Of a stretch of DNA of 61,093 nt, positions 7,184 to 29,600 are shown piece by piece. Under the pieces are notes generated by a model that worked only from the letters and a program-made list of their open reading frames with translations, was not told the DNA's origin and did no database searches. The stretch's first letter is position 1; every line of letters begins with the position of its first letter. The stretch is from Candidatus Omnitrophota bacterium (GTDB taxonomy: Bacteria; Omnitrophota; Gorgyraeia; Gygaellales; Profunditerraquicolaceae): positions 1 to 61,093 of the forward strand of contig VGKG01000006.1 in the NCBI GenBank assembly GCA_016867115.1. The letters are read 5' to 3'. The translations under genes were made by a program, and so were the position numbers.

Positions 7184-8827
7184 ATGTATACCAAGCCACG
7201 GCCGGGCCAACGGAGTTTGGCAGGAAAAAGGTATATTTCTATTTATAAGCCAGCATCAGGCGCATTGGCCTCGATCCTGGCTATTCTTTTAGCCTTTTCA
7301 CCCGCCCTGGCAGGCAAATACTCTACCTCGGCAAGCTGGAGCGACGGCGTCGGGGACTATTCGACCGGAAGTTTCTCTATCTCTGCCGGCATGTCCGTGC
7401 CTCAGATACCCAGTTTCTCCACCACCAACATCACCCCGACCTATTATTTCCCGACCGATATGAAGGTCAATGCCGCAGGCTTCACCACTGACGCAGGAGC
7501 CTTTATCAATCCCACCGCAGTCGCCTTTGTGGACCCGCCTAAGATAGTAGACCCTACTACGGATAAACGCTTTCCCCAGGGCGTAGCCATGGTCACCTTT
7601 ACCAATGGCCTTGACGGCACCATGTGGCAGGCCTCCGATAATACCCATATCCCCGCCTATGTCAGCGATATGGACCGCCAGATGATGGATATCCAGCCGG
7701 CAAAGGCAACCCGGCTCATGGGCGTAGATATCCCCACTGCCAATGTCGCCTACGGCGAATGGAAGGGCAATGTCAACAACATCACCTACCAGAACATCGC
7801 CTTCCTGAACGAGAACCTGGTTAACAGCATAGATGCAAACGACGCCACTGTCTGCGCCCAGCAGCTGGCCAAGAATCCGCAAAACATAGAACCCATGGCC
7901 TACAACTACACTAATCTTCCCGGAGACAAGGTGGCAGCGATCTACCTTACCACGCCTGACCAGACCGCCCACTTTAGCTACTCCACCGGCGCCTATGTGA
8001 TGCCGGGGGATCTTCTGATAGGGACAGGAGAGAACTATGTCAAAGGCCTGGGCGTAGATGTGGAAACTCGGGATACTGTCTGGAAGCCTGCCCGGCGTAT
8101 CGGCGAGCAGATAATCGAGGAGACCGCGACCTCGCGTTCATTCTATCGCAGAGAACTTGAACCGCAATACCAGCTTGATATAAGCCAGCAGGGCAACATC
8201 AGCCCGCGCCACGCTGTCAAAGACAGGTTCACTAACGGCCAGGAAGAGATGATTTCTGATACGATGAAATTTGTTCTCAATCCGGGAAAAGGGACTTTAG
8301 CCGACGGCGTTGCCAGCGTGGCTAAACTGGCAGAGTTAGGCCAGATCGCTACAAAAGAGGAACAGAAAATGGTCCTGGATACCCTAAAGACAGTTACTGA
8401 CATCCGGCAGAAAGACATCCAACCCCAACCCTTTGACGAAGAAGCATTCAATGCGCAAGTGAGTAGCCCCGATATGTTCAGGATGTGGATTTCCGCGCAA
8501 ACGGCAGATACTTTAATGGCTGACAGGCTGGCTAAAATAAGCACAAATAAAACCGCGACTATCGGCGATTTTGTTTCCGCGGCTACCCCGGATCTGATAA
8601 ATGTCGCTGACACTGATTATAAAAGAGACGCACTGGCATATACATTGCGCTACATCGCAGAAAAGGGCTGGTTGAACGTGCCCATAACAAATGTTACTAC
8701 TCTGTCCAGGCAGTTAGATCAACTCAGCGATGTCGGGGCTCCGAATGATAAGGTGATATACAGGGGTAATACCGTGCCAGTCCCTGAGCCATCTTCTAAA
8801 AGCCTAAGCCCTGCCGCGTTATTTTAA
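7184..8827 (+). CDS. Secreted protein paralogous to the N-terminal region of the giant protein
   Basis: The 547-residue product starts at ATG 7184 behind GGAGGG (7175-7180). The signal peptide has the core ASILAILLAFSPALA at residues ~29-43. The mature part begins GKYSTSASWSDGVGDY and carries PSFSTTNITPTYYFPTDM. The giant protein has the same two segments with few changes (GKYSTGASWNDGAGDY near its residue 285), and the likeness continues loosely for about 230 residues up to a GAYVMPGDLLIGTG-type segment. After that the two proteins differ: this one ends in about 250 mostly helical residues. It lacks the C39-like domain that precedes the shared part in the giant protein. It is either an independent smaller family member or a remnant of a once longer gene. 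The mobile-element patch begins directly after its stop. Confidence 0.85.
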   Translation: MYTKPRPGQRSLAGKRYISIYKPASGALASILAILLAFSPALAGKYSTSASWSDGVGDYSTGSFSISAGMSVPQIPSFSTTNITPTYYFPTDMKVNAAGFTTDAGAFINPTAVAFVDPPKIVDPTTDKRFPQGVAMVTFTNGLDGTMWQASDNTHIPAYVSDMDRQMMDIQPAKATRLMGVDIPTANVAYGEWKGNVNNITYQNIAFLNENLVNSIDANDATVCAQQLAKNPQNIEPMAYNYTNLPGDKVAAIYLTTPDQTAHFSYSTGAYVMPGDLLIGTGENYVKGLGVDVETRDTVWKPARRIGEQIIEETATSRSFYRRELEPQYQLDISQQGNISPRHAVKDRFTNGQEEMISDTMKFVLNPGKGTLADGVASVAKLAELGQIATKEEQKMVLDTLKTVTDIRQKDIQPQPFDEEAFNAQVSSPDMFRMWISAQTADTLMADRLAKISTNKTATIGDFVSAATPDLINVADTDYKRDALAYTLRYIAEKGWLNVPITNVTTLSRQLDQLSDVGAPNDKVIYRGNTVPVPEPSSKSLSPAALF

Positions 8828-9058: not shown

Positions 9059-9640
9059 ATGCCTAGAGCCGCACGAGTCATCCCGCCTGAAGGATTCCTG
9101 CATGTTATCTCAAGAGGCAATAACCGCAGGAAATTATTTCTTAGGCCATCAGATTTCAAAGTTTATCTGCGTCAACTAAGAAAGCTCAAATACGAAGAAT
9201 CAATCAGTGTCTTTCACTACTGTTTGATGCCTACCCACATCCATCTTTTAGTGGGGATTATTCAAAATAGCGATCTCTCCAGATTCATGAAGCGGCTAAA
9301 CCTGAAATATTTTTTCCACTACCAGAAAAGATACGGGTATCTTGGCCATTTATGGCAAGACCGGTTCAAGAGCAAATTAATCGAGTACGATACGTACCTA
9401 GTGCAGTGCGGAAAATATATTGAATTGAATCCGGTGCGGGCAAATCTCGTCAGCTCAGCTGCGGATTATCCTTATTCGAGTTACCGCTATTACGCCTTGG
9501 GGTTTGAGGATAAGCTTATCGATAACGACCCTCTATATTTAGATCTAAGCACTGATGCAGCGCAAAGAAGGTTGATTTATCAGAAGATGCTGCTGGATGA
9601 GATTGCCTGCGAGGAAAAGTTACAGAAGGGCATTTTTTAA
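9059..9640 (+). CDS. REP-associated tyrosine transposase (Y1_Tnp / IS200-like, RAYT)
   Basis: The 193-residue product is a single-strand DNA endonuclease of the HUH superfamily. It carries the RAYT opening PRAARVIPPEGFLHVISRGNNR, the metal-binding HUH motif in LMPTHIHLLV (residues ~58-67), and the nucleophile region IEYDTYLVQCGKYIELNPVRA (~115-135). In this family one Tyr forms the covalent DNA link. YPYSSYRYYALG follows, as usual. The length is normal for the family and I see no frameshift. These enzymes cut and copy short REP palindromes, and several REP-like palindromes lie nearby and within the giant gene. Translation is probably limited by the upstream hairpin. Confidence 0.93.
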   Translation: MPRAARVIPPEGFLHVISRGNNRRKLFLRPSDFKVYLRQLRKLKYEESISVFHYCLMPTHIHLLVGIIQNSDLSRFMKRLNLKYFFHYQKRYGYLGHLWQDRFKSKLIEYDTYLVQCGKYIELNPVRANLVSSAADYPYSSYRYYALGFEDKLIDNDPLYLDLSTDAAQRRLIYQKMLLDEIACEEKLQKGIF

Positions 9641-9659
9641 CCTATGGACTACAATGGGT

Positions 9660-9681
9660 TAGGAAGCGAAGAACCGTCCCC
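9660..9681 (+). repeat. REP-like repeat, copy 1 (AGGAAGCGAAGAACCGTCCC)
   Basis: This is the right boundary of the transposase unit. The same sequence recurs at about 10482 and 11090 with a GTT just before it. Its last 11 bases are the reverse complement of 8834-8844. Confidence 0.65.
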
Positions 9682-9703
9682 ATAGGACTACAAGGAGGTT
9701 AAG

Positions 9704-9871
9704 ATGTTTGATTCCTATGCCATAAGGTTTAACGAAAAGTTAAGAAAAAACAGATGCAGCAGCTGCAAAGGTTGCGATAAGGTTACCTCATCAGAGCAGT
9801 GCCTCTGGCATTGCGATAAGTGGTTCGCATTAAAGGTCAGGCAGGTGTCTTTGCGCCTCAAGCGGAATTAA
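9704..9871 (+). CDS. Small Cys-rich protein, possible metal binder
   Basis: This 55-residue frame starts at ATG 9704 with a strong AAGGAGG binding site (9690-9696) seven bases upstream. The product begins MFDSYAIRFNEKLRKNRCSS and carries five cysteines in the arrangement CxxCxxC, then CLWHC after about ten residues. This could form a small zinc or iron-sulphur site. The good binding site and the Cys pattern favour a real gene. Against it, the frame is short and lies in a mobile-element patch. It could also be the remnant of a longer protein. Confidence 0.45.
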   Translation: MFDSYAIRFNEKLRKNRCSSCKGCDKVTSSEQCLWHCDKWFALKVRQVSLRLKRN

Positions 9872-9900
9872 AGGAACGTCCGAGAAAAAGGGGGATTAAT

Positions 9901-10418
9901 ATGCCGAATACAATGTCAGTTGAGGTAATCACTACCAAGATCTTGTTGATAAGAGGTAGGGGGGTGATGTTGGATAGGGACTTGGCAGAGCTTTATAGAG
10001 TTTCAACTAAGGCTTTAAATCAGAGTAAAGAGGAACATAAAACGTTTCCCTCCAGATTTTATGTTTCAGTTAACAGATAAAGAGAAAAAAGAGGTGGTCA
10101 CAATTTGTGACCACCTTAAATCTCTAGAGTTTTCATATCAACCGCCCTATGCCTTTACTGAACAGGGGGTAGCCATGCTCTCTAGTGTATTGAGAAGCGA
10201 AAGGGCAGCTTAGGTCAACATTCATATTATGCGCCCCTTTACTAAATTGAGAGAGCTATTTCTCACACACAAGGAATTAGCTTTGAAATTGGAAGTCCTG
10301 GAAAAGAAATACGCGCAGCACGATGAGAAGATCCAAGCCATTTTTGAAGCAATCAAACAATTGTTGCAGCCGCCCCAAAGTAGAAGAAAAAAGAATAACC
10401 GGCTTTAGTACAAAGTGA
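9901..10418 (+). pseudogene. ORF6N-domain gene, broken by frameshifts and a stop
   Basis: The reading starts MPNTMSVEVITTKILLIRGR and follows the ORF6N N-terminal domain (MLDRDLAELYRV). Near 10043 the frame changes: bases 10059-10190 continue the domain in the next frame as [14 protein letters not shown] and [16 protein letters not shown]. An in-frame TAG follows at about 10211 where the intact copy has a Val codon. The rest (EVLEKKYAQHDEKIQAIFEAI) matches the usual ORF6N C-terminal coiled part, with another frame change before the end. It is clearly a decayed paralogue of the intact gene at 10527. A truncated 5' protein of about 60 residues could still be made. Confidence 0.85.
10092..10116 (+). 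repeat. Palindrome inside the ORF6N pseudogene
   Basis: AGGTGGTCAC (10092-10101) and GTGACCACCT (10107-10116) are perfect inverted arms around a five-base AATTT loop. The palindrome lies at the same place in the domain as the one in the intact copy, but the arm sequence differs. Confidence 0.8.
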
Positions 10419-10507
10419 TGCAGGGTGAGAGCGGTTAAAATGCAATTGGCCCGTTTGAAACTTTATGTTGTCGGTGGGGTTAGGAAGCGAAGAACCGTCC
10501 CCTAGTT
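10383..10507 (+). repeat. 125-bp direct repeat, copy 1 (tail of the ORF6N pseudogene)
   Basis: This stretch matches 10992-11116 with only two base differences. It covers the last ten or so codons of the gene, about 65 bases of noncoding sequence and a terminal REP-like AGGAAGCGAAGAACCGTCCC. It is far more alike than the coding parts before it. Confidence 0.9.
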
Positions 10508-10526
10508 AAGAAAGGAGGATTTAGAT

Positions 10527-11027
10527 ATGGCTAATAATGTCTCTGTAGAAGTGGTTGCAGCGAAGATTCTGATCATAAGAGGTAAACGAGTGATGTTAGA
10601 TGAAGATCTCGCAAGACTCTATGAAGTAGAGACTAAACAATTAATCCGGCAGGTTAAAAGAAATATTGAAAGATTCCCCGCTGATTTTATGTTTATATTA
10701 ACAAAAGAAGAATATTTGAGGTGCCATTTTGGCACCTCAAAAAGAGGTGGTAGAAGATACCTTCCATATGCTTTTACTCAGGAAGGCGTAGCCATGCTTT
10801 CAAGTGTATTGAATAGCAGAAGGGCTGTATTGGTGAATATCCAAATTATGCGGGCATTTTCTCAGTTGCGGCGCATGCTGTTAGCTAACAGAGATCTTAA
10901 ACGCAAGATTGAAGAAATGGAGAAGAAATACGATAAGCAATTTGCGATTGTCTTCCAGGCAATAAGGCAATTGCTTGCGTCACCTAAATTTGAAGAAAAA
11001 AGAATAACCGGCTTTAGTACAAAGTGA
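10527..11027 (+). CDS. ORF6N-domain (KilA-N-like) DNA-binding protein
   Basis: The 166-residue product starts behind AAAGGAGG (10511-10518). It carries the complete ORF6N pattern: ILIIRGKRVMLDEDLARLYEV (residues ~12-32), then VKRNIERFPADFMFILT, then [19 protein letters not shown]-type sequence (~78-96) and NIQIMRAF. A C-terminal charged helix (EEMEKKYDKQFAIVFQAIRQL) and a short basic KRITGF tail follow. ORF6N domains occur in phage antirepressor-like proteins and in stand-alone genes that are often amplified in genomes. The role is unproven, probably DNA binding. A decayed paralogue lies just upstream. An 11-bp palindrome is built into the coding sequence at codons ~64-72. Confidence 0.9.
   Translation: MANNVSVEVVAAKILIIRGKRVMLDEDLARLYEVETKQLIRQVKRNIERFPADFMFILTKEEYLRCHFGTSKRGGRRYLPYAFTQEGVAMLSSVLNSRRAVLVNIQIMRAFSQLRRMLLANRDLKRKIEEMEKKYDKQFAIVFQAIRQLLASPKFEEKRITGFSTK
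10715..10741 (+). repeat. Palindrome inside the intact ORF6N gene
   Basis: TTTGAGGTGCC (10715-10725) and GGCACCTCAAA (10731-10741) are perfect 11-base arms around the five-base loop ATTTT. They encode LRCHFGTSK, just before the conserved GGRRYLPYAFTQEG. Confidence 0.85.
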
Positions 11028-11266: not shown

Positions 11267-11296
11267 TTGACATCGACGATGACGCTGTGTTATACT
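11267..11296 (+). promoter_or_regulatory. Near-consensus sigma-70 promoter of the giant gene
   Basis: The -35 element is TTGACA (11267-11272, exact consensus) and the -10 element is TATACT (11291-11296), with an 18-base spacer. Transcription would start near 11303, about 30 bases before the riboswitch aptamer and about 310 bases before the start codon. The position and quality make this the best promoter in the window. Confidence 0.75.
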
Positions 11297-11330
11297 TGTG
11301 TTGCAAATAGAAGGAAAAGCCACGGTTGCG

Positions 11331-11427
11331 ATAAAGGCAAACTCTGAGTAATCAGGGGACGCAAAGCCACGGATCCTACAATTAGAGCCACGTTGAACAA
11401 CCTGTAAAGGATAGCCGGGTTGCCGAA
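11331..11427 (+). ncRNA. Cyclic di-GMP-I riboswitch aptamer (GEMM-I)
   Basis: The sequence carries the GEMM-I hallmarks in order. The P1 5' strand is GGCAAAC (11336-11342). A CTGA-GTAA-TCAG hairpin (11343-11354) follows, with a GNRA-type loop. Next is the invariant GGACGCAAAGCCACGG (about 11357-11372). A second arm closes with ATCCT/AGGAT around a variable loop, then AGCCGGG and the P1 3' strand TTGCC (11420-11424). GGCAA pairs exactly with TTGCC. The base just before CAAAC is G, as in c-di-GMP binders, whereas c-GAMP variants usually change it. The aptamer binds the second messenger that controls adhesion and pili. It lies between a strong promoter and the giant gene, so that gene is almost certainly under c-di-GMP control. 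Confidence 0.92.
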
Positions 11428-11476
11428 TACCGACGATTGTAAGTCAGTATTTGACAATCCGGTTTTTGTTTACAGG
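11401..11476 (+). promoter_or_regulatory. Long-range pairing CCTGTAAA / TTTACAGG across the terminator
   Basis: CCTGTAAA (11401-11408, in the outer arm of the aptamer) is the exact complement of TTTACAGG (11469-11476, just after the T tract). The pairing would bracket the terminator and compete with the aptamer arm. It may be part of the switching mechanism, but eight bases could match by chance, and I cannot tell ON from OFF. Confidence 0.35.
11430..11467 (+). terminator. Intrinsic terminator directly after the riboswitch
   Basis: The left arm CCGACGATTGT (11430-11440) pairs with ACAATCCGG (11454-11462), with a small bulge. TTTTTGTTT (11463-11471) follows. It starts six bases after the aptamer, as expected for a riboswitch that controls by early termination. 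Confidence 0.75.
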
Positions 11477-11511
11477 CTTAATAAGCAGTTTAATAAAGAG
11501 TTAATAAATCC

Positions 11512-11580
11512 GTAAAGGAAGAGCGTGAAAGACGCCAACGCAAGAAAAAGATTTGGGGTAAGGGGGAGCCTTTACTTTTT
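11512..11580 (+). promoter_or_regulatory. Second leader hairpin with T tract before the giant gene
   Basis: GTAAAGG (11512-11518) pairs with CCTTTAC (11569-11575), followed by TTTTT (11576-11580). A small GCGT-GAAAG-ACGC hairpin sits inside. It could be a second terminator or a structured part of the 5' UTR. The same GTAAAGG also occurs in the aptamer arm (11404-11410), so CCTTTAC has two possible partners. The start codon at 11614 lacks a clear binding site; the nearest AGGT is about 19 bases upstream. Confidence 0.4.
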
Positions 11581-11613
11581 CCTTTTATATATAGGTAATA
11601 CTATAGAATAAAA

Positions 11614-14600
11614 ATGGACGAAGGCGGTTACAAAAAAATCGAAGAAGTGAATCCTGAAGCGGGCGTAGTTGCTATTGAAGCCCCTTTCAAGTCCAGATTT
11701 AAAACCTGGATCAGGGTAGTAGCTTTTGTCGTGGCAGCTGTCTTTCTTCCTGAACAGGTAGCCCAGGCAGTGCAGTATGACTGGCGCGTGATCTGGCGCC
11801 AGCCGGGTGCTGCAACCACGCCTCTTATGCCCGGGGCAATGCCTCCTTTAAGCGGCATTGATGTCGCCCTCTCCGTAAAAAATATCCTCAAAGACGTTGC
11901 CAATAAACCGGTTACAGATATTCAGCTCTCCCCTGAAGTCGCCCTGCATTTAGACCAGCCCCTGAAAATGTCCAGCCAAAGGATAGAAGAGATTTACAAC
12001 TGGCTGAAAGGTAAACCCTGCGGCGCCAAGGCGCTCTTTGATTTCTTGAAGTTTAAAGGTAGTGCTGCCCAGGAAGCGGATATCGCAGTCATGGCCCTGA
12101 CCATTGATATCTTAAACGGCGTGGTCAGGCCCGAAGGCGACCCCAAGGTGATCAAGAGCTCATTATTCGCGCTGGCTAAGACCTCAGAGTTTTTCGGACA
12201 GAAATTATCTGCAGTCAAAACAGATTTAAATGATCTGGCAGAGAGAGCGCCCTTCATCGCGCACTTAAAGAGCGAGCACTATGTTTTAGTCACCCGCATC
12301 ACCAAAGACAAGGTCTACTATAGCGAAGAGCATAAAGAAGAGTTCCTGCCCAGAGAAAAGTTCCTCAATGAGTTTACAGGATACGCCCTGGTCTTAAATC
12401 CCGAAGAGTCCTTTACCAAAGTCCCGGAGAGCGAAGCCAAGAGCGTAAAAGGCGCAGGCAAATACTCAACCGGCGCAAGCTGGAATGACGGCGCAGGAGA
12501 CTACAATACCGGTTCTTATTCGGTGCCTGCCGGCTATTCCATGCCGCAGATGCCGAGTTTCTCCACTACCAATATCACCCCCACCTATTACTTCCCGACT
12601 GACATGAACATCAATAGCGCCGGTTTTATGGATACTACGGGAAACTTCATTAATCCGGCAGCTATCGGTTTTACTTCCATGCCTGAAGTGAGCAATGTGG
12701 ATACTTACCAGACGCACAGCGAGCCGGTCTGGTTCCACAATGGCTTTGACGGAGCAAGCTTCCACCATGATTCTAGTATGGCGCAGCAGATTGATCCGGT
12801 TTATATCAACGGCTTAGGCCTCCAGCCAGACCAGGTAACCAAGACTGGCCGCGACATGGAGGTGCGTAATGGCGCAGGCACGGTAGTAGATACCCGTCCG
12901 ATCTATCAGACCTCAACCGGCATGGAACTGACCTATTCCACGGTCCAGACCAAGGATTTTCTCAACGAGAACCTTTATGCTACAGCCAATCCTGAATCCG
13001 GCCTGCCTAAGGCGTCGGATTACTGGAAGAATCCTAATGACCCGATCTCTAATTCCTCCATGACCTACGGTGCCTATGAAGCAGGCCCGGATAACAAATA
13101 TGTGGTCATGACCATGGATAACCCGAACCAGCACCACCACTGGAACTATATGGCCGGCGCCTATATTCAGCCCGGGGATGTATTGGTCACTACCGGTAAT
13201 GACGGTTCAGCCAACCAGGCCCTCTCCGGCTTTGGCGCAGATGTAAATGCCCAGCAATACAATTATCATACGGATAAAGGGTCCTATCAGTTCAGGGTAG
13301 GAAGTAACGGGAATCTGGCCTTTGACCCTAACCAGAACGATCACGGCCGCATCAATGGCTTTACTGATAATCTGGCTACTTCAGCCCAGTTAGGCGCAGC
13401 CAACTATATCGCTAACAGCACGCAGACTGACCTGGTGATCAAAGGCCAGAGCGGGGTGAATGCGGATGGCATAGGCACAAGCGGCGGCTGGGTAGAGGGC
13501 TGGGTTTCTACCGGAGCTACTGCACTTACTGCATCCGGAGAAGACCGAAGAGGCTATCTGGGAGACCGGACATTCAATAACACCGTAACCACCCCTGACG
13601 GCCAGAGTTTTGACCAGACTGCTTCCTTTACCGGAAACACCTATATGCATTTTGAAGAAGGACAGGCTGCCACAGGCCAGGTCGGAAATGGAAGCCACTA
13701 TCAGACCGGCGATTTAGGCCCTTATAATTTTACCGGTTTTGACTTTGCCTCAAAGCAGGTTGACGGCACTGCTTACTATACCCCGCTTTTAGAGACAGAG
13801 AAAGGCGCTAAGTTTAAGTTCGGCACTAACCAAATAGAGCAGATCCTGCCGGCAATGCCCAGGAACCTTACTACTGTTGATGATTTCAATAAACTACCCA
13901 GCACTCAGGATCCGTCTGATCTCCGCAGGGATTTCCGCGCCCTAAGGGATAGCCAGCCGTTAGGCGCAACTATCGCAGGCGAAGGTTATACCGGTATCGC
14001 GACTGCCGGAGATGATGGCATGCACATCGGTTTTGGCCTTTATGACGGCAGCATGAACTTAGGCCAGGGCCTTTATTACGATGTAGCTGACCTTAATCGC
14101 CACCTGGAGTTCACCGGCAACCTGAAGATGGATGTTTCAGATTCATACCAGGGCGGAAAAGTTGCGACCTACTCTTACAATTTCGGCACCACTGATCCTA
14201 CCCGGCCCGGATATTTCGGCCATGACTCCCGCAACCAGCTGAACTGGTTCAATATGGACGCCCGTTTTGCCTATGACCAGGGCAAGTATTATGCCTATTC
14301 AGAGGTTGTCAATGACCCGACAGGTAAAGACCTGACCCGCGACCAGGCGCTCCTGCGCAACCACTTCATCAATAACCCGGATATCTTAGGCAGCGCAGAC
14401 ATGTCCGGGAACTGGGAGTGGCAGATCATGTCTGACCGCATTGATCCCGCGACCATGTCCGTAGTTTCGCAGGACTACTTAAAAGGAAATAAGGATCCTG
14501 TGGCAACCAGCCTTGGCTTATTAGTCGAGCATAATAAACAGCTTTATTTCCAGGAGACCTTTGATGTCAGTGCTTCGGCATACGAATTGATGGGCAAGGC

Positions 14601-17600
14601 AAGCATTGACCCCAGAAGCGTTGACCATGAGCGGCTGCTGGCTTCGGGCGAGTTCATGAAAGCAGCCGGCGATGTGCAGCCCCTGCAGCAGGAAATCATC
14701 ACCCCTACCATGGATAATTATGAGGCAGTCGTAGATTTAGCCTATCAGACCGGTGATTTAGACTTAATAGACAGGGCTGAGACGGTTAGAGACACCTTTG
14801 CCGAAATGAAGGACTTGGCTCCGGAGTATCTGAAGGTCAGGGAGAGAGAAATTGAGTTGACTGCCCAGAATAATAGATTAGAAGGTGAGTTGTCCAGGAT
14901 GTCTAAGGATGGAGTATCTCAAACTGATCCAAAGTGGCAGGCCAAATTGCAGGAGCAGCAGGGGATCCGCCAACAGCTAGAAGGGCCGGAAGGAGTCTGG
15001 GCAAAGAGAGATGCCCTGGAGTTACAAGAGCCCATCCTGCCCACCATGTTCCAGGATTCCACAGCACTCCTGGGCGAATTGAACAAGAATATTTACTCTG
15101 CGGATACGCTCTTTGGCGACCAGCAGGGCGCAAGAGACCTTTATAACAGCCGCAGCCAGATACATACCAGCCCGGTTTCAGCCAGCCTTCTCAGCCCCGA
15201 GAACAGGGAAGGCTCCAAGGCTACCCCGCGTAACGAAGCCATTGCCAGCATAAACTTCGGCTACAACAATGACCCGCACCTGGCCTTAGCCAGCTTAGGC
15301 GACGGCGCGCTCACCCACTGGGATCCTTTATCCGGACGCACAGACCTGGGCCAGGGCTTGAGGGTGAATGTCTATGACCAGGGCTATAGAGTGGATTTAT
15401 CCGGCACTGCACAGTATGGCTGGTCTATCCCCTATAAGGATGCCGCCGGTAAAGCCCGCAATTATGACGTGGATGTAGTCGCCCGCTTTGGCGACGGCGC
15501 CAACTACGCTTTAGCCCACGGCAACCCGCGCCTTAATTACGGAGTGATGCAGGATTTAAGCCGGACTACCACCGAAGGCAAGGCGCCGGTCCTGCCGAAC
15601 CTGGAGGTTTCTTTCTCCGCAGCCCCTAAAGACTACCTGCAATACGTCAATGACAACAGCGACCTCTTCAGCGGTTTTGTGAGTATTCCTTTTGATAAGC
15701 CGAACCTTTATTTTACCGTTAGCGGAGAAGCATTCCTCGGATTAGAGAGCGCAAAGAAAGACGTTGCCGGCGTAGGCCTGAATAATAACGGCATGGCCAC
15801 CCTTGAGTATATGTGGAATCCTGCGGGTGAAGGCAGCTTACAGCACATTAATACCAGAGACGGGACATTAACGGATAGTACGGTTGCCGCTGCTTACTGG
15901 GTCAATCCTTATATGGATAGGAAGGATGAAGGAAAGTTAAGCCGCGTAGACATCTTAGAAAAATTAGGGGATAGTGAATTCAGGACTTATATTGACCAAC
16001 TTAAGACAAAATACAAAGATTCCGAAGCGTTAAATACAGCCTTGGATCAGGTCCTCCAGTTACCCAGGCAGGAGGGGTCTAAGAAGTTAGTCGAGCTTAT
16101 CGGCGAAAATAACCTGCGCCTGATAAATCCTGATGGTTCAATGAGGGATCCTCTGGAAGCTGCTGGCCTCTTTTATGACGGAGTGCGGAAGGTCTCCAGA
16201 GAAGCCTCCTATGATGCAGAGATCCAGGGCCATTACGGCGGTTTATTCCGCATGCTTCCGCAGCAGGCACCGGAGATCTGGGCGCCGGTGGCAGGAGGAG
16301 CAGGACAGGATGCGCTTAACCCGGCCGGCAAATCCAGGACCCGTACTTCTGCTTCAGAGCCCGAAGTAGTCTTACGCTCTTCTGACATGCCGGATGGCTT
16401 CAGCGGCCCGGACTTTGAGATCATGAAGGGCAGGGACAGCTGGCTTGGCCATATCTGGGACCGTTATTCTGACGGCGGGAAGTTCAAGTTCAGCGGGCCC
16501 GGCTATGAAGGCGACGGCTGGTGGAAATATGAATCAGGATTTGATCTTTACAGGATGGTGCCTTTTGCTCCGGGAATACCCGGCCTGAATACGCCCGGTA
16601 CGCTCCCCGGAACCGGAACAGCCCAGGACCCGCGCCTGACCAGAGACCAGTCAATCTCCAAGCAGCTGAATGATTTTGCCCAGAACCGTCCGGCCAACCT
16701 TGAGCCTTACAATTTCGGTAACGGCGTAGTCTCCGGCCCCAGATATGGCCGCGCTGAGATTACCATTAAAGAATCTTTCAGCCCCTGGCAGCATGCTATG
16801 GGGCTACAGGATAGGACCCAGTCTGTTCTTTCTATCTGGAGATATGATGTGGATGGCCAGAAGCCTGCGCCGGCGCTTGCTACGTTTGTACCCAAGATCG
16901 CTAATCCTGATTCACTAAAGGTGCAGAATCCGCAGGCAGCCAGCGCATTCAATGCCAGCCAACTCAACTTTGACGTAAAGACCCTCTTCAGGGATCCTTT
17001 AAGCACAGATTTTGAACCCTGGGATATCAATACTTCCTCGTTCCTCTTTAAATCTCCTATTCCGGATATTGATCTGTTTGGCATGTCAAATCCTTTCACT
17101 CAGGATCTGAGTCAGCCGTTTGATCCGGTGCCGAAACTGGACTCAGTACTTTCGCCCTCAACAAATGAAATATTCAATGCTGCCGGCCCGTTCAGCATTA
17201 CCTTGGATCAGCTCACGCATTTCGGCCAGATGAATGTACACGGCCAGAACGTGCCTTATTTCTCTTTTGCTCCGCGTTCAGGCGACGGAGAATCCCCTGA
17301 TCCGGCTGCCGGTTCAGTCGGCGTCAGCCCGATTTTCGATGCCAGTAACAAACAAAGATTCGATGTCTTCTCTACCTATACTTTAGGCAATTTTGATAAG
17401 AACAGCCGCATCTTCACCGCAGATAAATTCGGTTTCAATATCCCCAATGGCCAGCTCTCCAACACCAACTTCTTCAATTACCAGCAGTACGTTTCTCTTC
17501 CGGCGTCAGGAAGAGACCTGACCAAACCCGACAACTGGGCGCCGTTAGGCCTGACCGGACATCTCTGGGAATGGGCTCCGGGCAGCGTGATCGACGTAGA

Positions 17601-20600
17601 GATGAAGACAGTCAAAGGCGAAGACGGCAAAGAAAACAGATTCAGAGTTTTAAAATATAGCGCTGACACCCTGGCTAGCCCTGTTTTCACTGAGATAGGC
17701 AAGGTGCAGGAGGCATTAGACAGAGATAAGAATGCTAAGCCGACTGATCCGGTTACGGGAAGGCTTTATGAGTACTATAAAGTAGCCGGAGATGATGCGG
17801 TATTTATGCGCGCAACTACCGTAAACCAGAATACCCCTCTTGACGAGCAAACTTTCGTTTTTAAGAGGGATAACGGAGAAACGGTCACCATCAAGACAGG
17901 GAAGATAAAGCGCGAAAACGGCGAAGAGGGATTCGAGAGTTTAAGCGATGCCGCCTTCAGGCAGAATATAAAGTTATCCGAGTCTGAATATTCCCGGCTG
18001 CTGAATGAAAACAGGGACTTGCTTACAGAGGAGTTCGGCGTCTGGAAACCGACGGAACAGACGTTGGCCGAACATGAGATTTCCGCCGGACCGTTAACTT
18101 ATTATCCTGATGCTACTAAGAGAGAGAAGAGCCTGGATATCGCTTTCCGGCAGGTCAGATGGGATAAGCAGCTAGGCATGGTTTATACCTTCGGCGACGC
18201 GGCAAAGAATAACGGCCTGGCAGATGAGTTCATGCCTGTACCGCTGGCTAATAATCCGATGGATGACAGCCGCGATGTCTTTATGCAGGGGCTGGTCACT
18301 GCCATCCAGGACTGGTGCAAGAAAAACAATAAGCCAGGCATAAACGACATTCCGAACCTTTCCGCCTTAGGCCTTGACCTCACCAGATTTAAAGGGATCA
18401 CCGCGGAACAGGCGAACCGCATGTTCTTTGAGCTGCAGTCTAATCCCGACAAGATTAATAAAGAGTTGGCCAAATCCGGCGAGCAGAGATTTACGGATGC
18501 CTATGTGAATTCGCTCCGGGCTGCCGGTGCAACGGATATAAATGGCGAACTGGCTAAAAAAATAGCCGCACCTTCGGCTGCGAATTTCGGCTTAGATGAG
18601 AAGAAGGCGGAGGAATTACTGGCCGGCATCAGGCAGAATGCTACTGCGACGAATGAAAAGTTGCGCAAGGCCGCGATCAATCCCGATTTCGATTCTTACC
18701 TCAATGTCGTGATGCCTAAGCCGGGGAGCATAGTGGTAGCCGGAGAGACTAAGGAATTATTGGTCGATGCTACCGGCGTTGATTCAAGGAAAGAGGTCGG
18801 CTCAAGGAGGGTCAGCTTTGTCAATCAGTGGGATTCTAACACTATGCAGTCCACCTTAGGCCTGCCGGGGACCCGTTTTGACCTGCCCCGCACATCAAAA
18901 TACAGCTCCTACTTTGAGGCAGTGAATATAGCCACTCCTATTCTCGCTGATTACCCATTATCTTATACGCCTTTTAAGGCCCATGTAGAAAGTGTATTCG
19001 CCGATATCCAGGCTGCCGGGCTTACCTTTATCGGCAGAGACGGCACAGAAAGGACCTTCTTTGGCGGCGGCCTTAATATCGATATCGATCCTAAGCACGG
19101 TATTGTCATGGATGCAGGCACCGGGATGCTGGAGAGAGTGTACGTCATCCCCTTACCGGGAAGTAATCCGCAGGCCGGAGATTCCCACATCACGGTAAGG
19201 GTGAATTACCATAAGCAGGACCTCCTGGGCATATTCTATAAAGTAGCCGGAGATTCGGATTTTGTGCCGTACTCGCAATTTGCCGCCAAGTTGATCGGCA
19301 AAGAAATAGATACCCTCGGCACTTATGTCCTGGATGATATACCTTCGGTGGATGCAGCGATCAATAACACCCAGAAGCTGCTTAATCTGCTGAGGTTCGT
19401 CAGCCGCTTATCTGAGAAAGAGAGAGGGGCGTTAAGGCCCATATTAAATGAGCTCTCCCGCGTTGTGCTTAATGAAGAGGCGATGAAGAAGGGGCGTTAT
19501 TCCTCGATCTACTATTACCTCAATAACCTTCCGGAGATGGCTATTCAGCCTAAAGATGTCCGCGCCTGGACCGATGCGGACCTGGCTACTTTAAAGAACG
19601 CCATACGCTCCAAGTTGAGCCCGATCAATCAGGTGCAGTTTGATAGCATTTTGGGCGCTGGGCAGGATAATGCTCTCATCGCCCAGAACCTGACCGCATT
19701 TATCATGGCCCTGATGCATCCGGAGTCTACAGGCACGGACCTTAAAAGGATGAGTGAATTTGAGCAGATGCAGGTGCTTAGAGATGCCCGTAATTTCCTG
19801 ACTGACCATCCCGGGGGGGCCATCACCTTCAACGAACAGAAGAATACCAGCTACATCGTGACTGCGGATGCGCCGGTGACCGCAGACGGAAGCCTGCCGA
19901 ACTGGTATATCAGAAGCGGCAATGATTGGGTGCTGGCCGGCGGCACTGCCCACGGGTTAGGCCAGATCACCCAGACCGTGACCTCCTCCTTATTCCCCCA
20001 GAAACCGCAGCAATTCAGGGTAGAGCTGAATAATTTTATCCTCCCCTCTAATGGCAGCGGAAGGCTCTCTGAGTCCGCTTTTACCGGCGCCGGCAGGTAC
20101 TGGGATTTCAATTCTCCTTTCAGCATGCAATACCGGGAGAGTAAAGGCACAGGTTACTCCGAAGCCCAAAGGCTGGCTACCTACGCCAGGGTAAGCTCCC
20201 GCGGCATCTTCGACGCGCGTGATTTCTTCGGCGGCGTGGTCTTTAGCACAGAGAAACCCGGAGATAGGCTGGTCTTCTCCCTGAGCAATGACCTGATCCC
20301 CATGCTCTATTACCGCACTGCCCTGAACGGCAAGGACGGTTCAATATTGCGGTTTGCCGCGGATGACCTATTTATCGCTAACAGCGTAATCAATACAGAG
20401 AAAGCCAAGCTTCTTGAGCAGGCCTTTGTCTTTGCCCATGGCGCAAATCCCAGCCTCTCCTTCCGCATAGACGATAAGGGCAGAGTGGTGGCGAATTACG
20501 TGGACTTAGGCAAGAACATCACCTCCCATTTTGAGGCCGGAGAAATCGCCGAAGGCCCGAATAAGGGACAGACCATCGGAAAATACGATGTGGTAGAAGT

Positions 20601-23600
20601 AGAAGAGGGCGGGAGAAAGGTCAAGAGGATAGCCAATGTAAGAGACGGACTATCCTATACCGGGCTTAAGTTCCCCAATGCCACCGGCTCCAATTTTGTC
20701 GGCACAGAGGCGACTATCTCGGTACTGACCGGTGCGCTTTATAACCAGGATCAGTTTACTTCTCGCATCATCGGCTGGGGCGCTACTTACACCGCATTAT
20801 TGAATACGGAAGAGCTGGTCAAAGGGAAATTGCAGTCGCGCGTCAGGCCGTTACGCGAAGGCTTTGTGGCGATGGGCAACTTTGACTTTAAGAATGTAGA
20901 AAGCTACCGTATTGCCAATGATATGAACCTTCCCGGCCTGCAGAGAGGCACCCGCATTGATCCGCTGATCGTCAAAGATAAAAAACAGGCGGAAGCTGAA
21001 GGACAAAATAGCTCCCAAGAGAATCAAGAATCATCTTCTGCCAGGATAGGAGGCGAATTCCTGCGCATCGGGGAGACTAGCGTCATTAAGAAACTGCAGC
21101 GCAGCTTATTCGCAGACGGGAGCGGAAGAGAGAAAGAGAGCTTCTACGATCTTTCTACCTATGGTACGCACTTCTTCATCCATAACGGAGTGGACCAGGA
21201 CGGCATCCACCTTACTCCTTCTATAGGTATAGCCGGTAATGAGTTCATTTTAGAAGATATGGATATGGGTGAGCGATTTGTCTCTCAGATGGCCCTGTTG
21301 CGCCAGAATAAGAATACCTATGTGACGATCCTGGTGCCCATAAAAGACGAGAGCGGGCAGGTGGTAGACTACTGGCACTATCTGCCGCAGAAAAAAGACA
21401 GGAATATCTCTGCTGAAGAGCGCGATGCCATTGATCAGGGCCTGGAGAGGATAGGTGCGGGAAATCTGAATCTGATGCCCGCTTTCAGCCATAACGGCAG
21501 AAAGGGCTGGTTTGAGCTACATGAGCAGAGTCCTTACCAAAAGGGCGGCATGCGGTTTGCTATTGACGGTTCAGGCAGGTGGACCATAGTACATGATAGT
21601 GAGATTTACGGCAGCACCAAGGCCTTCTTCAATTACGGTGATCTGGACGCGTTGGTCTGGACAAAGGGCGGTTTTAAGAAGATGGATGTGGAATCAGAGG
21701 CCCTGCCGGAATGGTGGAATGAAGACTTTAGCTACACCCGCGAAGTATTGATCGCCGCAGACGGCGAATACGGCGTAGATGAACAGAGGTATCATACCGA
21801 TGGACTGAATCGCGGCGGAATGGATGCCTTGAGAGCCAGAGAAGTCTGGGTAGAGGGTAAGAGGTATTACGTTATTGCGGTAAATGAGGGCGATCTGTTT
21901 GAAGACAAGACCAAAGGGATCAATGCGGATAATGTAGAGGTGCTGGTCCCGGACGGCGAAGGCGGATTTAAGACGATGTACATTGACGGCGGACACGATG
22001 ATTCTAATTTAGAAGATACCCTGGAGAATTTCTACAAAGGCTACGAAGGAAGCGGAAAGAGCATGGATTGCTGGGTACCGGCAAATATGGTGCGCATTAT
22101 GATAGGCAAAGGTTCTTATGAGGGTAATGCCCTGCAGGAGATGCTTGACGGAAAGACCGCTAAGCGTAAGACCGCGGTAAATCCTGTTACCGGAGCGGAA
22201 GAAGAGTGGCTCCTGCTTTCTGTTCCCGTCGACAACCTGGACCTGGCGCCTACGGAGAAAGAGGCATCTGGCGAGATCCCGGAAAAAGTAGCGGTGATAG
22301 GAGAAGATGGCCAGACTTACGGCATTAATTTTGGCGGCCGTAACCGCGACGCGGACTGGGAAGATGTATTAGAGGGCGTGCGCGGTGAAACCGGCACTCT
22401 GATGGTAGAGTTTGATGCTAAAGATGTCCGGGCTATGGAAGGACATTTCTGGGGCAGCCTTGCTGATTTAGAGCCTTTTAAGGCGACAGTAAAGGATGCG
22501 GATGGCACAGAAAGAGTCGTCTATCGCCTGGTGGTAGATTCTAGCATGGTGATGCGTAAAGAAGATGCTGAGGCGCGCTGGTTCAATGATACAGATGATG
22601 ATATACACGGCAGGTTAACTGATGGTACGGCAGTGACCATAGAGGGCGGCACAGGTTGGTTCTTCGGTGAGAGCGACTTTGAGAATACCCTGGAGTCTGC
22701 TGTAGACCATCCGGAATGGAGAGAAAAGGCAGCAGGTACCTTTGAGAAGTTCGGTAAGCCTGCGGCAGAAGCAGAAGTGACTATGGAGTTTCCGGTGAGC
22801 ATGGTCGCTTCTTCCGCAGATTTTGACGAGGGGACTTATGCCGTGGCTTTCGTGCCTTTAGCGGATGTAGGGAATGCCGGCGGCGCGAACTGGCAGGCAA
22901 AGCATAGCGATATAGACCAGGCGACCTGGGATAAATATGTGGCAGAGAATACCGTGGAAAAGAACGGCCAGAAATACGTGCGTATGCCGGTAAGAAAAGA
23001 CAATCTGACCGAAGCTGCGGGTGACGGGTTCTGGAATTTCAGCTCCAGAGATGACCTGAAGATCTTAGTGGAGGACGGCAGGGGCGGCACTATTGAGCGC
23101 TTCATCGATACCGGAAGATGCGACTCTAATTTTGAGGATACTATAGAGGAATTGATCCAGCCGGTCAATAGTCTCGAATTTATCCCCTCCATCGATACCG
23201 GGATAAATAAAAATAACTGGTCCATCTTTGGCCAGAATCGCGCCTATCGTCTGGAGGGCGGCTCCCTTGAAGGTTACATGATGGAATTATGGCGGCATCA
23301 GCCGGAAGATTCCGCAGTCACCAACGTGCTCTTCCAGACCATGGCTGCCAATGACTATGCTGATGAGTTAAGCGCAAATATCGCATATCTAGTCGGCGAT
23401 GCAATAGTGACCGCGGTATTGTATGTCGCGACTGCGCTGTTGGTTATTTTTCCTGGTGATGGCCCGGTTGGCGATGCTGTTGGCGGAGTAGGTTCTGCGG
23501 CTATGACCGCCAAGACCGGGGCTGCCGCAGCCAGGATATTCAGTGCTGCCTGGTGGCTGAAGAGGGGCTGGCAAGCAACTAAATGGGCAAATATAACTGC

Positions 23601-26600
23601 GCTGGCTTTCTTAGGTTATCAAGAGACCAAGAGTTATTTGATAAATGGCAAATTCCTGGATGCCCTGCAGGCTACCGGTCTTTATAAGAATGTAAGCGCC
23701 TGGACCGCAGGCAGCCTTTTAGGCCTGGATGTGATCAGCGCCGGCCTGGGTAAGTATGCTTTAGCCGAGAAGATGTCAGCGCTGATATCCAAGCTTCCTA
23801 AACCGATTCAGGCAATTGCTCCTACAGCAGGAAGGATCCTGGCCGGTTCGACCCTCGGAGCAACCAGGGCCTTATTACATGATGTTGATCCGGGAAGTAC
23901 GGAATTCTGGGTGCAGACAGGTATCGGCGGCGTAACCTTTGCTATAGCTAATCCGACATTCAATAGCATAGGAAAAGGTATCCGGCAGGCCGGAGCCGGC
24001 ACCCGTTCTTTAGCTTTGATGAGATTCGGCAGGGGCATGGTCAATGCCTCTATTCCTATTTCTAGCGGTCTTTCCGCGGCTGTTCCGGGTATTGCCAGCC
24101 ACGCTATTTACGGCGATAAATCCCGGGAAGCAAAAACCTTTACCCTAGCCACGCCGGTGATGGATTTCTGGGGCGGCTTTATTGTCGGTTCCCTGGCGCG
24201 GGGAATTTATATGTGGAATGAAGCCCTGAACACCCGTAATCCCGCGCTCGTAGAGACACAAAACATGCGGGCCAGCAAATCGCTCTATGGCAGGCTTCTC
24301 AGCACCTCTAATAAAATAGCCTTAGGCACCTGGGCAGTAGCTGATACTACCATAGATGTCTTGAGTCAGGGGAGACTCTTTGGCAACGAGTTCTCCGGCG
24401 GCCCCGTCATCGGCCCGATCTTATCCCAGAGTTTACATAATTTCAATAATGTCTTCTTAGCCACGATGTTAGCCCGGAGCATAGGCAGGGGAGGCGGGGA
24501 GAAAGGTTTCTGGAAAGACTTCGCAAAGAACAACGCCAAATGGCGGACAGAGCAAGGAAGCCTTTTATGGGGAGCTAAGTCCAGGGATTTAGCTGTATTG
24601 CTTAAATTCCCTGCCGGCAATACCGTAGAGTGGGCCCTGACCGTAGGAGGTATCTTAGGCGGGCCATATTTAGTGGAGAAGATCACCGGTAAAGATTTTT
24701 ACAGCCCCGATGCGGATGCAAAGTTAGGCCGGGAGATTTATCAGGCTGCCAGCTGGCTCGCTTTAGGCGCCAAGTTGCTTGTGCCCGGCTTAAAAAATCC
24801 GACCAAGATTTATAATGAATGGTTTACCGTAGGCGCCCACGGGAAGCGGCCGTACAGTTTCTGGGGACTGGTCCAAAGCACTGCCAGTGAAGCGGGGAGC
24901 CTATTACCGAAACTCGCCGGATTTATGCCCATCTATCCTTTTGCCCAGTCTTACCTTTATAACAATACCGGGGATACCAAGTGGGGGACATTCTTAAGAG
25001 ATATGTTTGACCTGGTGCAGATCCCGGCAAAGCAGGGAGATACAGTTTTAAGAATATGGAAATTAAGCGATGATGAGATCACGGCTTTTATTCAAAAGAA
25101 CTTCAATGCCACAGAACAGAAGAAACTCACTGCGCTAGTAAATGAAATAAATCAAAAGGGCGCTTCGGATAAGGCCAGGCATATCAGAGAGCTCCTGGTT
25201 TCCGCGTACCTGGATGAACAGAGTACCGGCAATCAGGGCGTGGCCAGAAGAGCTCTGGAATTGAATATTGACCCGAATGCGCCGAACCAGAGATTCTTTA
25301 ACTTGCAGAGGCAGATAGAGATCGCAGAAATGAAATTAAGGCTAGAGAGCGCGCAAGGTCCGGAAAAGACACATCTCTTACGCGCCATCGAGGAATTAGA
25401 GGGGATGTCCAGCCTCGTTTATAGCGGTGTTTATCAGACTTCTCTGGCTGCCTGGCAAGGGGTAAAAGTAGGTTTATATTTTGCTCCGACCATGCATTTT
25501 GTGCGGCCGGTCTTAAATGAGGCACTCTTGGGTATACCCGGCTTATCGCAATTCCAGACCTATATCCAGGATGTGCTCGGCGATTTTGGTTTCAAGAGCG
25601 CAGTCGGGACCGCGGTAAGCTTTGCCGTGGAAGAGAATTTCCGCGAACAGGTTACTAACTTGTTCTTCAGGAAGTTATTTACCAGTATCGGCGGCTTAGC
25701 TGCTGCTCCGCGCCGTTCTGATTATTCTTCGCAGGCAGAATATTACCGCGCCCAGGCGATGTACCAGCAGGTAATGGAGTGGTTCCAGGAATCCTTTGAT
25801 ACCAAGCCTACCCCGAATCTGACTACCCGTTTAGCGTACGACCCTAATTTAAGATTCCAGCCTAAGGATAAGCCGTCTTCACCGGCAGTTTCTAATACCG
25901 GCGTCAGCCCGACTCCCCGCGCTAACGTGGAAGAGGTCATTGCCGGTGATTCCGGCGGAAGAGATGCCGGAGTTCCTGCTGGCGTGGATTTAACTATTCC
26001 GGCAGCTGCCCCGGGCGCAACGGAAACCGCCAAGGTGAAATTAGTCAGGGGCTTACAAGAGGGGACTGCCGGCCAGGCAGATCATGTGGATGTGGCTACC
26101 GGAACCGTATATGTGGATGCCTCTTTAGCCGGAAACCAGGGCCAGCTCAGGCAGGCAATAGAGCACGGCGTGGATGAGTTACGCGGCCACCGGGACAATG
26201 CCAATAGTCAGGGCATAGCCTATGACCGGTATGCAGGGCAATACCTGGATAGAGCGCAGAGCGACCCGGCAGTAGTAGCCAAGATAAACCAAATTCATAC
26301 AAGTGCCCGTCCTGCGCCGCAGGTGCATACAGGCCTCTTTGATACCCCGATTACCAGTATCCAGCCGGGAGACGCGGGTACAGAGAGAGCAAGCAAGCGG
26401 CCGGCCACATTTATCGCTACCCTGATACACAGACTGAATATTTTCGGCACTTTAAGCGCCGCGGAGCAGCAGGAGGCCCTCTTCCAGCTGGCAGGGTTAG
26501 GAAATGATACTACCATTAAGTTCAACGATGACACAGAAGTGGAGATGGGCGAGTCTTCAGAAGATACCAGAGAACTGAAGAACTTGGGATTAAGAATTGA

Positions 26601-29600
26601 TATGATAAATAAGGGGCTCCGTACTAAGCAGTTATCAGAGCTTTGCGAGTCTCAGGATCCCGATATAGCTTTGGCTGCCCAGCAGGTCATCGCCGAGCGC
26701 TTAAGCGACAGTCAGATAAGAGATGTATTGGCCCGCAGGTCGGTGACGCTGGATGGTGTTCAGATAGATGCGGAACGTATCCAGAGCGGTGTCTCCCGAT
26801 ATATGTCAGGAAGGACAGGATATGCGGCTGAGGATATAGTGGTTTCAGCAGAAGAGGTCCTTAAACAAAGAAAGCGTGAAGCAAGAATGAGATTCGTTAG
26901 CGCTCCGGCTGCGGATAAGGGCTTAGCCAGGACAGCCTGGTATCAGGAGAAAGCGGCGGTTGAGAGAGACCTGGCCAGGATAGCGGCCATTGACAGCGCG
27001 GTCACCTACCATATCTTGGCTCCGGATACCTTATCAATGCTGGCAGGCTTTAACCTGGCAGATTCTGAGAGGAGTTATCTCTCCAAAGATAAGGCGCAGA
27101 AGTTCTGGGCAGGGAAGTCAGACTTAGGGCTTGCTTCGCACAGACTCTCCTTTGTTACCGACAGGTTGACTCTGAGTTCGGCGATCAGCAGATTAAGACA
27201 GGTCTCAGGAAAGCGCCAGGACGGGTTCAGGCTAGAGTCCGAAGCTGACGGTACCTACAAAGTCAAAGCGCAGGATCCGATTAACGCCACTCCTCTGAAA
27301 TTGCAATACCGCGGTTTCTTAAGCGCAGACAGATGGGGAGAATATAGGCCCGGAGAAAGCGACACGGACCTGGCCCTGGAAGCGGAGAGGATCAAGGACA
27401 GCGCGCGCAAGGCTGTGGAAGAGTCAAGGCCTGATTCCCTCTTAACATTCGACCCGAACCGCGAGACCAGAAGCTGGTTTAGCCGCCTTGGGAATTCGCT
27501 GCTTAGCCGGCTTTACGGCGTAACCCAGGGCAATGGCCTGATTGACCGCCTGAAAGACCCTACTTCAAGGGGCGGCAGGATGACTGAATGGGATTATTAT
27601 CAGGGCATGGATGAGCAGAACCTGCTCATGCTGCAGTTAATGGCAGAGAGCAAAGGGATTACTCCCGAGGTAGATTCCCGGGGCGCAGTACCGATGGCGC
27701 GCATGCAAAGATGGGGCGTGCCGGAAGTAGATGCTGCCATGGCCCGTATGAATGGACTCTTGCAGGTGACTGATCTTTATGATGGCCGCAAAGTCACTCT
27801 GGACCCGAGAAAAGCCAGGAGAGAGCATCATGCTGCCGGCCTGACCATTACCGAGCAGGAAGACGGAAAGGTGCGCGTGCGCGGCACTAAATATAAGAAA
27901 GAAGCTGACCCCAGGGATGCCACCAAGACCCGGATCGTGCGCGATGCCGAAATAGATGAGACTTATGATCTGGGTGTCAGCCCCGCAGTCATAGATACCG
28001 GAGTGGGAGAAGTCACCCTGAGTAAAGGCTGGGGCAGGCAGATAAAGGTTGAAGCAGAGAGAGTAGATGATAAGGGCGAAACGCAAAGGTCAAAGGCCAA
28101 GCTTACCCGCGGCAATGCCAGCAATCTATTATTTGATGTGGAAGTAGGCGGAAAGAAAGAAGAACTCTCTATCGCACCGTCTGACCTCAGGGACGGCAAT
28201 TTCAGGGATGTCTTACATTGGGATAAGGATAAAGAGCTTGGCCGCGGATATGATATTGATATCGCAAAGAGGGGCATCTTCAGGAGAGGCTATGAGCTGA
28301 CCGTAACACCGTATGATTACAAGAGGCTGCCTAATGAAGAAAGAGGGCCTCCCGGCCCGCAATACCATGCGCCTTACCACTCAGCACAGTACCATCAGCT
28401 TACGGCTGAAGAGTGGATGCGCGCAGAACAGGATCTGATGGACGGTATTGAGCAGCATATGCAGGACCTCCCGCCCGTAACTACCCCGCAGCAGACCCCT
28501 ACTAGCCCCAGACAGGCCAGGCAGGCAAGGCAAGCCAGAGCTCAACGCGGACTCTTAGAGCAGAATAATATAGGTAGTATCGTGTTTTCATTCTCTTATA
28601 CCCTGGCAACCGGCGGCGTGGCCACCTTCCAGAGAGGCATTATTGAAGGCCTGTTAAGAAGCAATCCGGGCGTAGATATCCACCTCATTTATTTAAGCCC
28701 CACTGATCATGTAACCACTAAGGTAATCCACGTCAACGGAAGAAAAGTTGTTTTCCACGGAGTTCCTACCAGAGGCGGCGTGAACAGCCAGCAGCAGAGA
28801 AAGCTCGTCGCCGAGATCCTTTCAGATATCAACGGACAGAAGAAGATAGACTTAGTGGTCAATAACGACGCAGAGAACGTGGATTTTGCCCGCGGGCTGC
28901 TGGATTTCTGCGAAAGCCAGAGCGTGCCGCTGCACAGCTATTATCACGGCGGCAACATCTCAAGTGGGACCCTTGAAATAATGGGCCGTTCGACCCTGGC
29001 TGTGACCAATAGCCGCGCCTATGCCCGCATCTTTGAGAGCCTGGGCGTTCCGAATGTGGAAGTCCTTTATCCGGTCCCTGACCTTACCTATTATTCTCCT
29101 GACGCCATGGACGAAGATGATGCCCAGGAAGTCGCCGAGTTGATCAGGCAATATAAGCTGGAAGGAAAAACCGTGATCATCCATCCCGGCCGCGTTGATT
29201 TCCAGAAAGGGCAGGTGGATACTATTGACGCTGCAGCCCTCATCAAAGCCAGGGCTGAAGGAAAAGACGTGGTCTTTATCATCATCGGGCCTCCGGTAAG
29301 CGCCGAAGAGAGGTCGAGATTAGCCCACCGCGCCTTTGTCACGCACGGATTAATAGAAGGTGAAGATATCATCTTTGTGGGTAATCAGAGCAGGCGCCAG
29401 ATGCGCCAGTGGTTCTCTATTGCCGATATGGTCCTCTACCCGTCAAGATGGGTCGAGCCGTTTGGCCTGGTGCCGGTAGAAGCCCAGTCCATGGGTGTGC
29501 CGGTGATCGTTTCTTCCGAAGGCGGCCTTCCTGAGACGCTCTCCGACGGAGAGACCGGCTTTGTAGTCCCCAAGAAAGACCCGATCGCGCTGGCTGACGC

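Follow-up and report, generated by a model that had tools for sequence, protein, structure and literature searches.

Upstream of a giant gene in an uncultured Omnitrophota bacterium lies a c-di-GMP class I (GEMM-I) riboswitch with predicted ON-type anatomy, which sequence comparison with related genomes confirms as real and conserved. The window analysed, 61,093 nt, is a whole contig (C6) of a draft genome in 52 contigs, and homologous giant genes in dozens of genera have kept this arrangement in front of them. A preliminary description of this DNA had set a promoter, an aptamer and a terminator in that order before the giant gene, and each part lies where it had been placed, all on the + strand.

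The promoter (11267–11296) is of the sigma-70 type, TTGACA-18-TATACT with a TG before the −10 element, and its 11 of 12 consensus bases bear out its description as near-consensus; transcription presumably starts near 11303. A scan for promoters does not by itself exceed chance (2 sites against 2.0 expected). Upstream of the aptamer, a promoter with 11 or 12 of the 12 bases recurs in 44 of 47 homologous leaders, and in none after shuffling.

The aptamer (11327–11428) scores above the gathering cut-offs of two covariance models, RF03167 (68.1 bits, gathering 59; E = 5.5 × 10−14) and RF01051 (69.2 bits, gathering 35), in agreement with the earlier reading of a GEMM-I element with its invariant parts. 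Scanned with all Rfam models, the 61-kb window contains the c-di-GMP-I aptamer as its sole family, and no further Rfam element is present in the giant-gene leader. Position numbers at the ligand site (20, 22, 45 and 47) follow the Vc2 RNA. Canonical c-di-GMP-I RNAs have A at position 47, and cGAMP-binding class I aptamers have A at position 20. The window segments read GGC...CGCAAAG, with G20 and A47. Among the homologous leaders, G occupies position 20 in 45 of 47 and A occupies position 47 in all 46 that are readable; the 22–45 pair covaries (C–G 24, U–A 17, U–G 4, C–A mismatch 1).

These residues bear on the nature of the ligand. The top-scoring Rfam label is c-di-GMP-I-GGC (RF03167), which might point to another cyclic dinucleotide, for example 3′,3′-cGAMP or whatever the GGC subtype prefers. 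The consensus of that model has G at position 47 (GACGCGAAG), whereas the window sequence, GACGCAAAG, has A there and falls outside the GGC subtype; with A rather than G at this position, the ligand site has the residues of canonical c-di-GMP binders. Nor does position 20 match cGAMP binders, having G where they have A, and the genome encodes nine GGDEF domains. We therefore consider a different ligand very unlikely, and take c-di-GMP as the probable signal. Immediately 5′ of the aptamer, an extra copy of AAGCCACGG (11317–11325) forms a direct repeat of the P3 5′ strand; it is a minority feature, found in 4 of 47 leaders under a strict pattern.

The intrinsic terminator (11415–11467) was identified by folding and by covariation in 45 leaders. 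Its 5′ strand (11415–11427, CCGGGUUGCCGAA) lies inside the aptamer, being the aptamer 3′ strand, and its 3′ strand (11450–11462, UUUGACAAUCCGG) is followed by UUUUUG, giving a U-tract at 11463–11467. The hairpin (11415–11462) folds at −23.7 kcal/mol. The terminator of the preliminary description is thus present, but not as a separate hairpin behind the aptamer: the two elements share a strand. Folding of the growing transcript, under an energy model that does not include the ligand, gives an aptamer-like structure until about 11456 and then a flip to the terminator.

In the alignment of relatives, this predicted overlap of terminator and aptamer is both conserved and covarying. Across 45 leaders, 86.9% of the cells that pair the terminator strand with the aptamer 3′ strand are standard pairs, against 83.6% (s.d. 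0.5) when the 3′ strands are re-dealt among loci (0 of 2,000 shuffles reach 86.9%) and 17–48% in slid registers. The key covarying terminator pair alternates between U–A (28) and C–G (12), with about eight changes on the protein tree; both sides agree in ~3.3 of 4 well-supported independent comparisons and are almost never opposed, numbers too small for significance by themselves.

The leader thus has the anatomy of an ON riboswitch, a terminator strand shared with the aptamer and then a U-tract. Because the terminator fold and the aptamer fold are mutually exclusive, high c-di-GMP should permit transcription. RNA polymerase, starting near 11303, would make the aptamer first. With c-di-GMP bound, the aptamer 3′ strand (AGCCGGGUUGCCGA) would be held in P3/P1, blocking the terminator and allowing read-through into the giant gene; with no ligand, that strand would pair with the terminator 3′ strand and transcription would stop at the U-tract. 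Whether the cell bears the cost of an mRNA 49 kb or more in length would in this way depend on the switch. The opposite polarity, in which c-di-GMP would promote termination through a structure unseen by the folding model, has two points in its favour: most class I switches of Clostridioides difficile are OFF switches (PMC6200980), which is counterevidence on polarity here too, and the other riboswitches of the genome (C9, C27 and C10) seem to have aptamer-independent local hairpins that could give OFF logic. At the giant gene, however, the terminator 5′ strand is the P3 3′ strand of the aptamer and covaries with the terminator 3′ strand, so that simple strand competition leads to ON, and we regard OFF polarity as unlikely. 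The leader is likely to control the giant gene as a transcriptional c-di-GMP-I ON riboswitch; that it binds the ligand, works as an ON switch in the cell and takes part in attachment to surfaces or prey is inferred.

Comparing the leaders of giant genes in related genomes, a check that the preliminary description had proposed, shows that the link between switch and giant gene recurs. Rfam scans find a c-di-GMP-I aptamer in 47 of 70 leaders, every one on the coding strand: in 44 of 54 from the same family (f1), in 3 of 8 from other families of the order and, outside the order, in 0 of the 7 giant-gene leaders with enough sequence. Chance placement was rejected, as some four hits per 1.5-Mb genome amount to ~5 × 10−4 per 400-nt leader, or 0.03 expected in the 54 leaders where 44 are seen. 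Four of the five remaining leaders from those other families (G112, G108, G115 and G113) have an aptamer 7–12 kb upstream on the same strand; that of G112 precedes a 2,378-aa ORF, with the giant gene downstream, and in G108, G115 and G112 aptamer and terminator strand overlap as they do in the window. Genes also intervene within f1: a 1,052-aa ORF in G038, where the aptamer lies further upstream, and a 330-aa secreted-type protein in G010, which is one of the 44.

Counterevidence comes from same-family relatives with no intact aptamer directly upstream (G020, G051, G061, G002 and G030). In G061 (L071), the DNA between two copies of AAAGCCACGG, the first 5′ of the aptamer and the second in P3, is gone, leaving a truncated aptamer of 30.9 bits. 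G072 and G089 (L106 and L109) have no c-di-GMP-I match genome-wide; their leaders keep the promoter, followed after a few bases by the U-tract and the downstream leader, with the aptamer and the terminator hairpin both missing. Such joint loss is expected if a terminator deprived of its aptamer would silence the gene. Loss of c-di-GMP signalling was rejected as the route by which these two genomes lost the switch, both retaining 8–9 GGDEF matches. Leaders L019 and L036, cut by contig ends, were left out as evidence on loss. The few relatives that have lost the aptamer could be taken to mean that the element is decayed or a chance match and functionless; set against its E-value, its intact invariant residues, its conservation in dozens of genera and its covariation, this is extremely improbable.

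The gene behind the conserved riboswitch is an ORF that starts at ATG 11614 and runs to 61092, where it is ended by the contig end: 16,493 stop-free codons, encoding at least 16,493 aa, in a window that contains no N. An N-terminal module (11707–12459) combines a membrane segment (aa 32–50) with a C39-peptidase-like domain (Pfam PF03412, aa 183–265, E = 5.1 × 10−11), whose Cys and His are invariant in an alignment of 20 relatives. This combination on a very long ORF places the protein in a giant-gene family to which the module is common, 89 of 195 related genomes matching aa 1–1000. Other Pfam domains are a GT4 glycosyltransferase, a PEP-utiliser C domain and a SEC-C motif; a crude scan finds 14 hydrophobic segments of 19 aa, and the C-terminal part of the window ORF consists of ~97-aa repeats. 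No adhesin Pfam domain is present in the 16,493 aa, the C terminus lying beyond the contig. Of the giant surface protein under a c-di-GMP signal that the preliminary description saw, the switch and the giant gene are thus borne out, and the product, with its C39-like N terminus, is at most a putative surface protein.

Homologues are longer still. By their coordinates, those of G065, G077 and G113 are complete at 35,009, 30,185 and 42,913 codons, and frames reach 57,756 codons in G010 (L080), which is open at the contig end by coordinates and among the longest bacterial ORFs. Two further observations concern the DNA upstream of the window gene. A 547-aa ORF (7184–8827) contains a part (7307–8065) that is 41% identical to giant residues 280–545, and is possibly a partial duplicate of the giant protein, judged by this similarity. 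An IS200-like transposase and two ORF6N-domain genes (9059–11027) adjoin the giant-gene promoter on its upstream side.

Between the terminator and the giant gene, a short upstream ORF (11525–11611; GTG start, 28 codons, MKDANARKRFGVRGSLYFFLLYIGNTIE), absent from the preliminary description of this leader, ends with its stop 2 nt before the giant ATG. It spans a conserved G-rich leader element, TGGGGTAAGGGG (11554–11565), recognized in the leaders of relatives, where a short ORF lies across a GGGG-NN-AAGGGG element in 43 of 47 cases. In conceptual translation the element gives GVRG or a WGKG-type motif, its frame differing among relatives. This recurrence, together with the conservation of the element, raises the thought that the switch mainly serves the short ORF or an attenuated short RNA, the giant gene starting separately further down. 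Yet 12 leaders fuse the short ORF in frame to the giant ORF, and in most of the 31 where it is closed it ends next to the giant start codon or overlaps it. No conserved promoter came to notice from the terminator to the giant ATG, and although the frame is kept, the peptide is without codon-position constraint. We give this arrangement very little weight, and retain the giant gene as the likely target. Selection on the upstream ORF as a peptide was itself rejected, differences being equal across codon positions (0.55, 0.56 and 0.57) and the G-rich element being read in two frames. Recruitment of an RfaH/LoaP-like NusG paralogue by the G-rich element for long transcripts found no support, as the genome has only one NusG. 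The intervening secreted-type protein of G112 and G038 has a comparable GGKGG/GKGG motif in its N terminus, so the short ORF may have been left over from the signal-peptide region of that gene.

The switch also heads longer gene runs, most of them with pilus genes. In four other genomes of the order (G112, G108, G115 and G113), it heads a co-directional run with the giant gene last. In G113 (f7) and in G108 and G115 (f2), the riboswitch is followed by small pilin-like proteins with GQSxxEYAV-type N termini (by eye), then by two T2SSF proteins of the TadB/TadC type (Pfam PF00482) and, 10–12 kb downstream, by the giant gene. G030 has the pilin–TadB–TadC–giant order with no riboswitch, and so has Ca. 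Velamenicoccus archaeovorus LiM (G180) a TadB–TadC–giant order; in LiM the giant ORF adjoins the Tad locus, reported at 12382–29832 (PMC10066038). Across distant families, LiM among them, the giant gene is last in a pilin–TadB–TadC (Tad/Flp) run (L227, L228, L229, L233 and L234). Tad-like genes of the window genome lie on another contig (by eye). As a tentative idea, the order might share a c-di-GMP attachment or predation programme, in which the ON switch would commit the cell to a Tad pilus, to a giant protein that can exceed 50,000 aa or to both, and the leader would add a second checkpoint through its translated short ORF and the G4-A2-G4 RNA element beside the giant start.

The giant gene is not the only gene behind such an aptamer. 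Four further aptamers in the window genome precede a TPS-domain exoprotein with FG-GAP repeats, an S8 protease with Ig/fn3/cadherin domains, a GH1 enzyme, and a small protein followed by an FG-GAP protein. The idea that c-di-GMP-I switches in the phylum serve giant genes above all was rejected: most of the 60 top-ranked matches in relatives stand before other genes, including those for response regulators and, recurrently, for GH1 enzymes, pilin-like proteins and TPS exoproteins. The giant gene is thus a consistent member of a predicted secreted/attachment regulon rather than its sole target. The terminators at L002, L004 and L005 of the window genome look like local hairpins apart from the aptamer, so polarity may differ between targets.

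Among the closest known systems is Bc2 of the Bacillus cereus group, likewise a class I aptamer in the 5′ UTR of a single long gene; there the gene, cbpA/cap, encodes a surface protein and its transcription is switched on by c-di-GMP (PMC7423583, PMC4933901). CbpA is an LPXTG-anchored Firmicutes protein of 2,187 aa, whereas the protein described here belongs to Omnitrophota, has a C39-like N terminus and measures at least 16,493 aa (more than 30,000 in relatives). C. difficile likewise has several c-di-GMP riboswitches per genome, on pili, adhesins and secreted enzymes, with class II switching adhesins and pilA1 ON, and with class I mostly OFF (PMC6200980); by contrast, the present switches are of class I with ON-type anatomy and have giant or Tad-linked targets. 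In Vibrio cholerae, c-di-GMP also governs costly large adhesins, CraA and FrhA, but by the text of PMC6890996 not via a riboswitch in the leader of the adhesin itself. The 39,678-aa ORF of LiM (PMC10066038) has a homologous N-terminal module and lies at the end of a Tad locus, as in relatives of the window. Its peptides show a 3-fold increase in attached cells (PMC10066038), consistent with an attachment signal, but a search beside the LiM giant gene found no c-di-GMP-I aptamer, and neither c-di-GMP nor riboswitches come up in that paper.

Riboswitches of this class, their ON logic and the control of large adhesins by c-di-GMP switches are already known. The statement that no giant gene had been described under such a switch agrees with the searchable literature (preprints not covered), and needs the qualification that GEMM-I ON switches have been described for adhesins of ~2,200 aa (CbpA/Cap; PMC7423583, PMC4933901). 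Within that same literature, the giant-gene target family, the order-wide shared leader and the Tad-operon variant appear to be new.

Omnitrophota giant ORFs have been called poorly conserved and of unknown function (PMC10066038). The shared N-terminal module, the riboswitch leader and the Tad-pilus context instead unite them in a single gene family for which a signal can be predicted. In one group of uncultured Omnitrophota, some of the longest bacterial genes known share this switch and are probably transcribed only at high c-di-GMP, an attachment signal. This gives a prediction usable in uncultured cells, that giant-gene transcripts would rise with c-di-GMP and attachment, and suggests how a cell may spare itself an unneeded transcript of 50–170 kb, by halting the polymerase within ~170 nt of its start.
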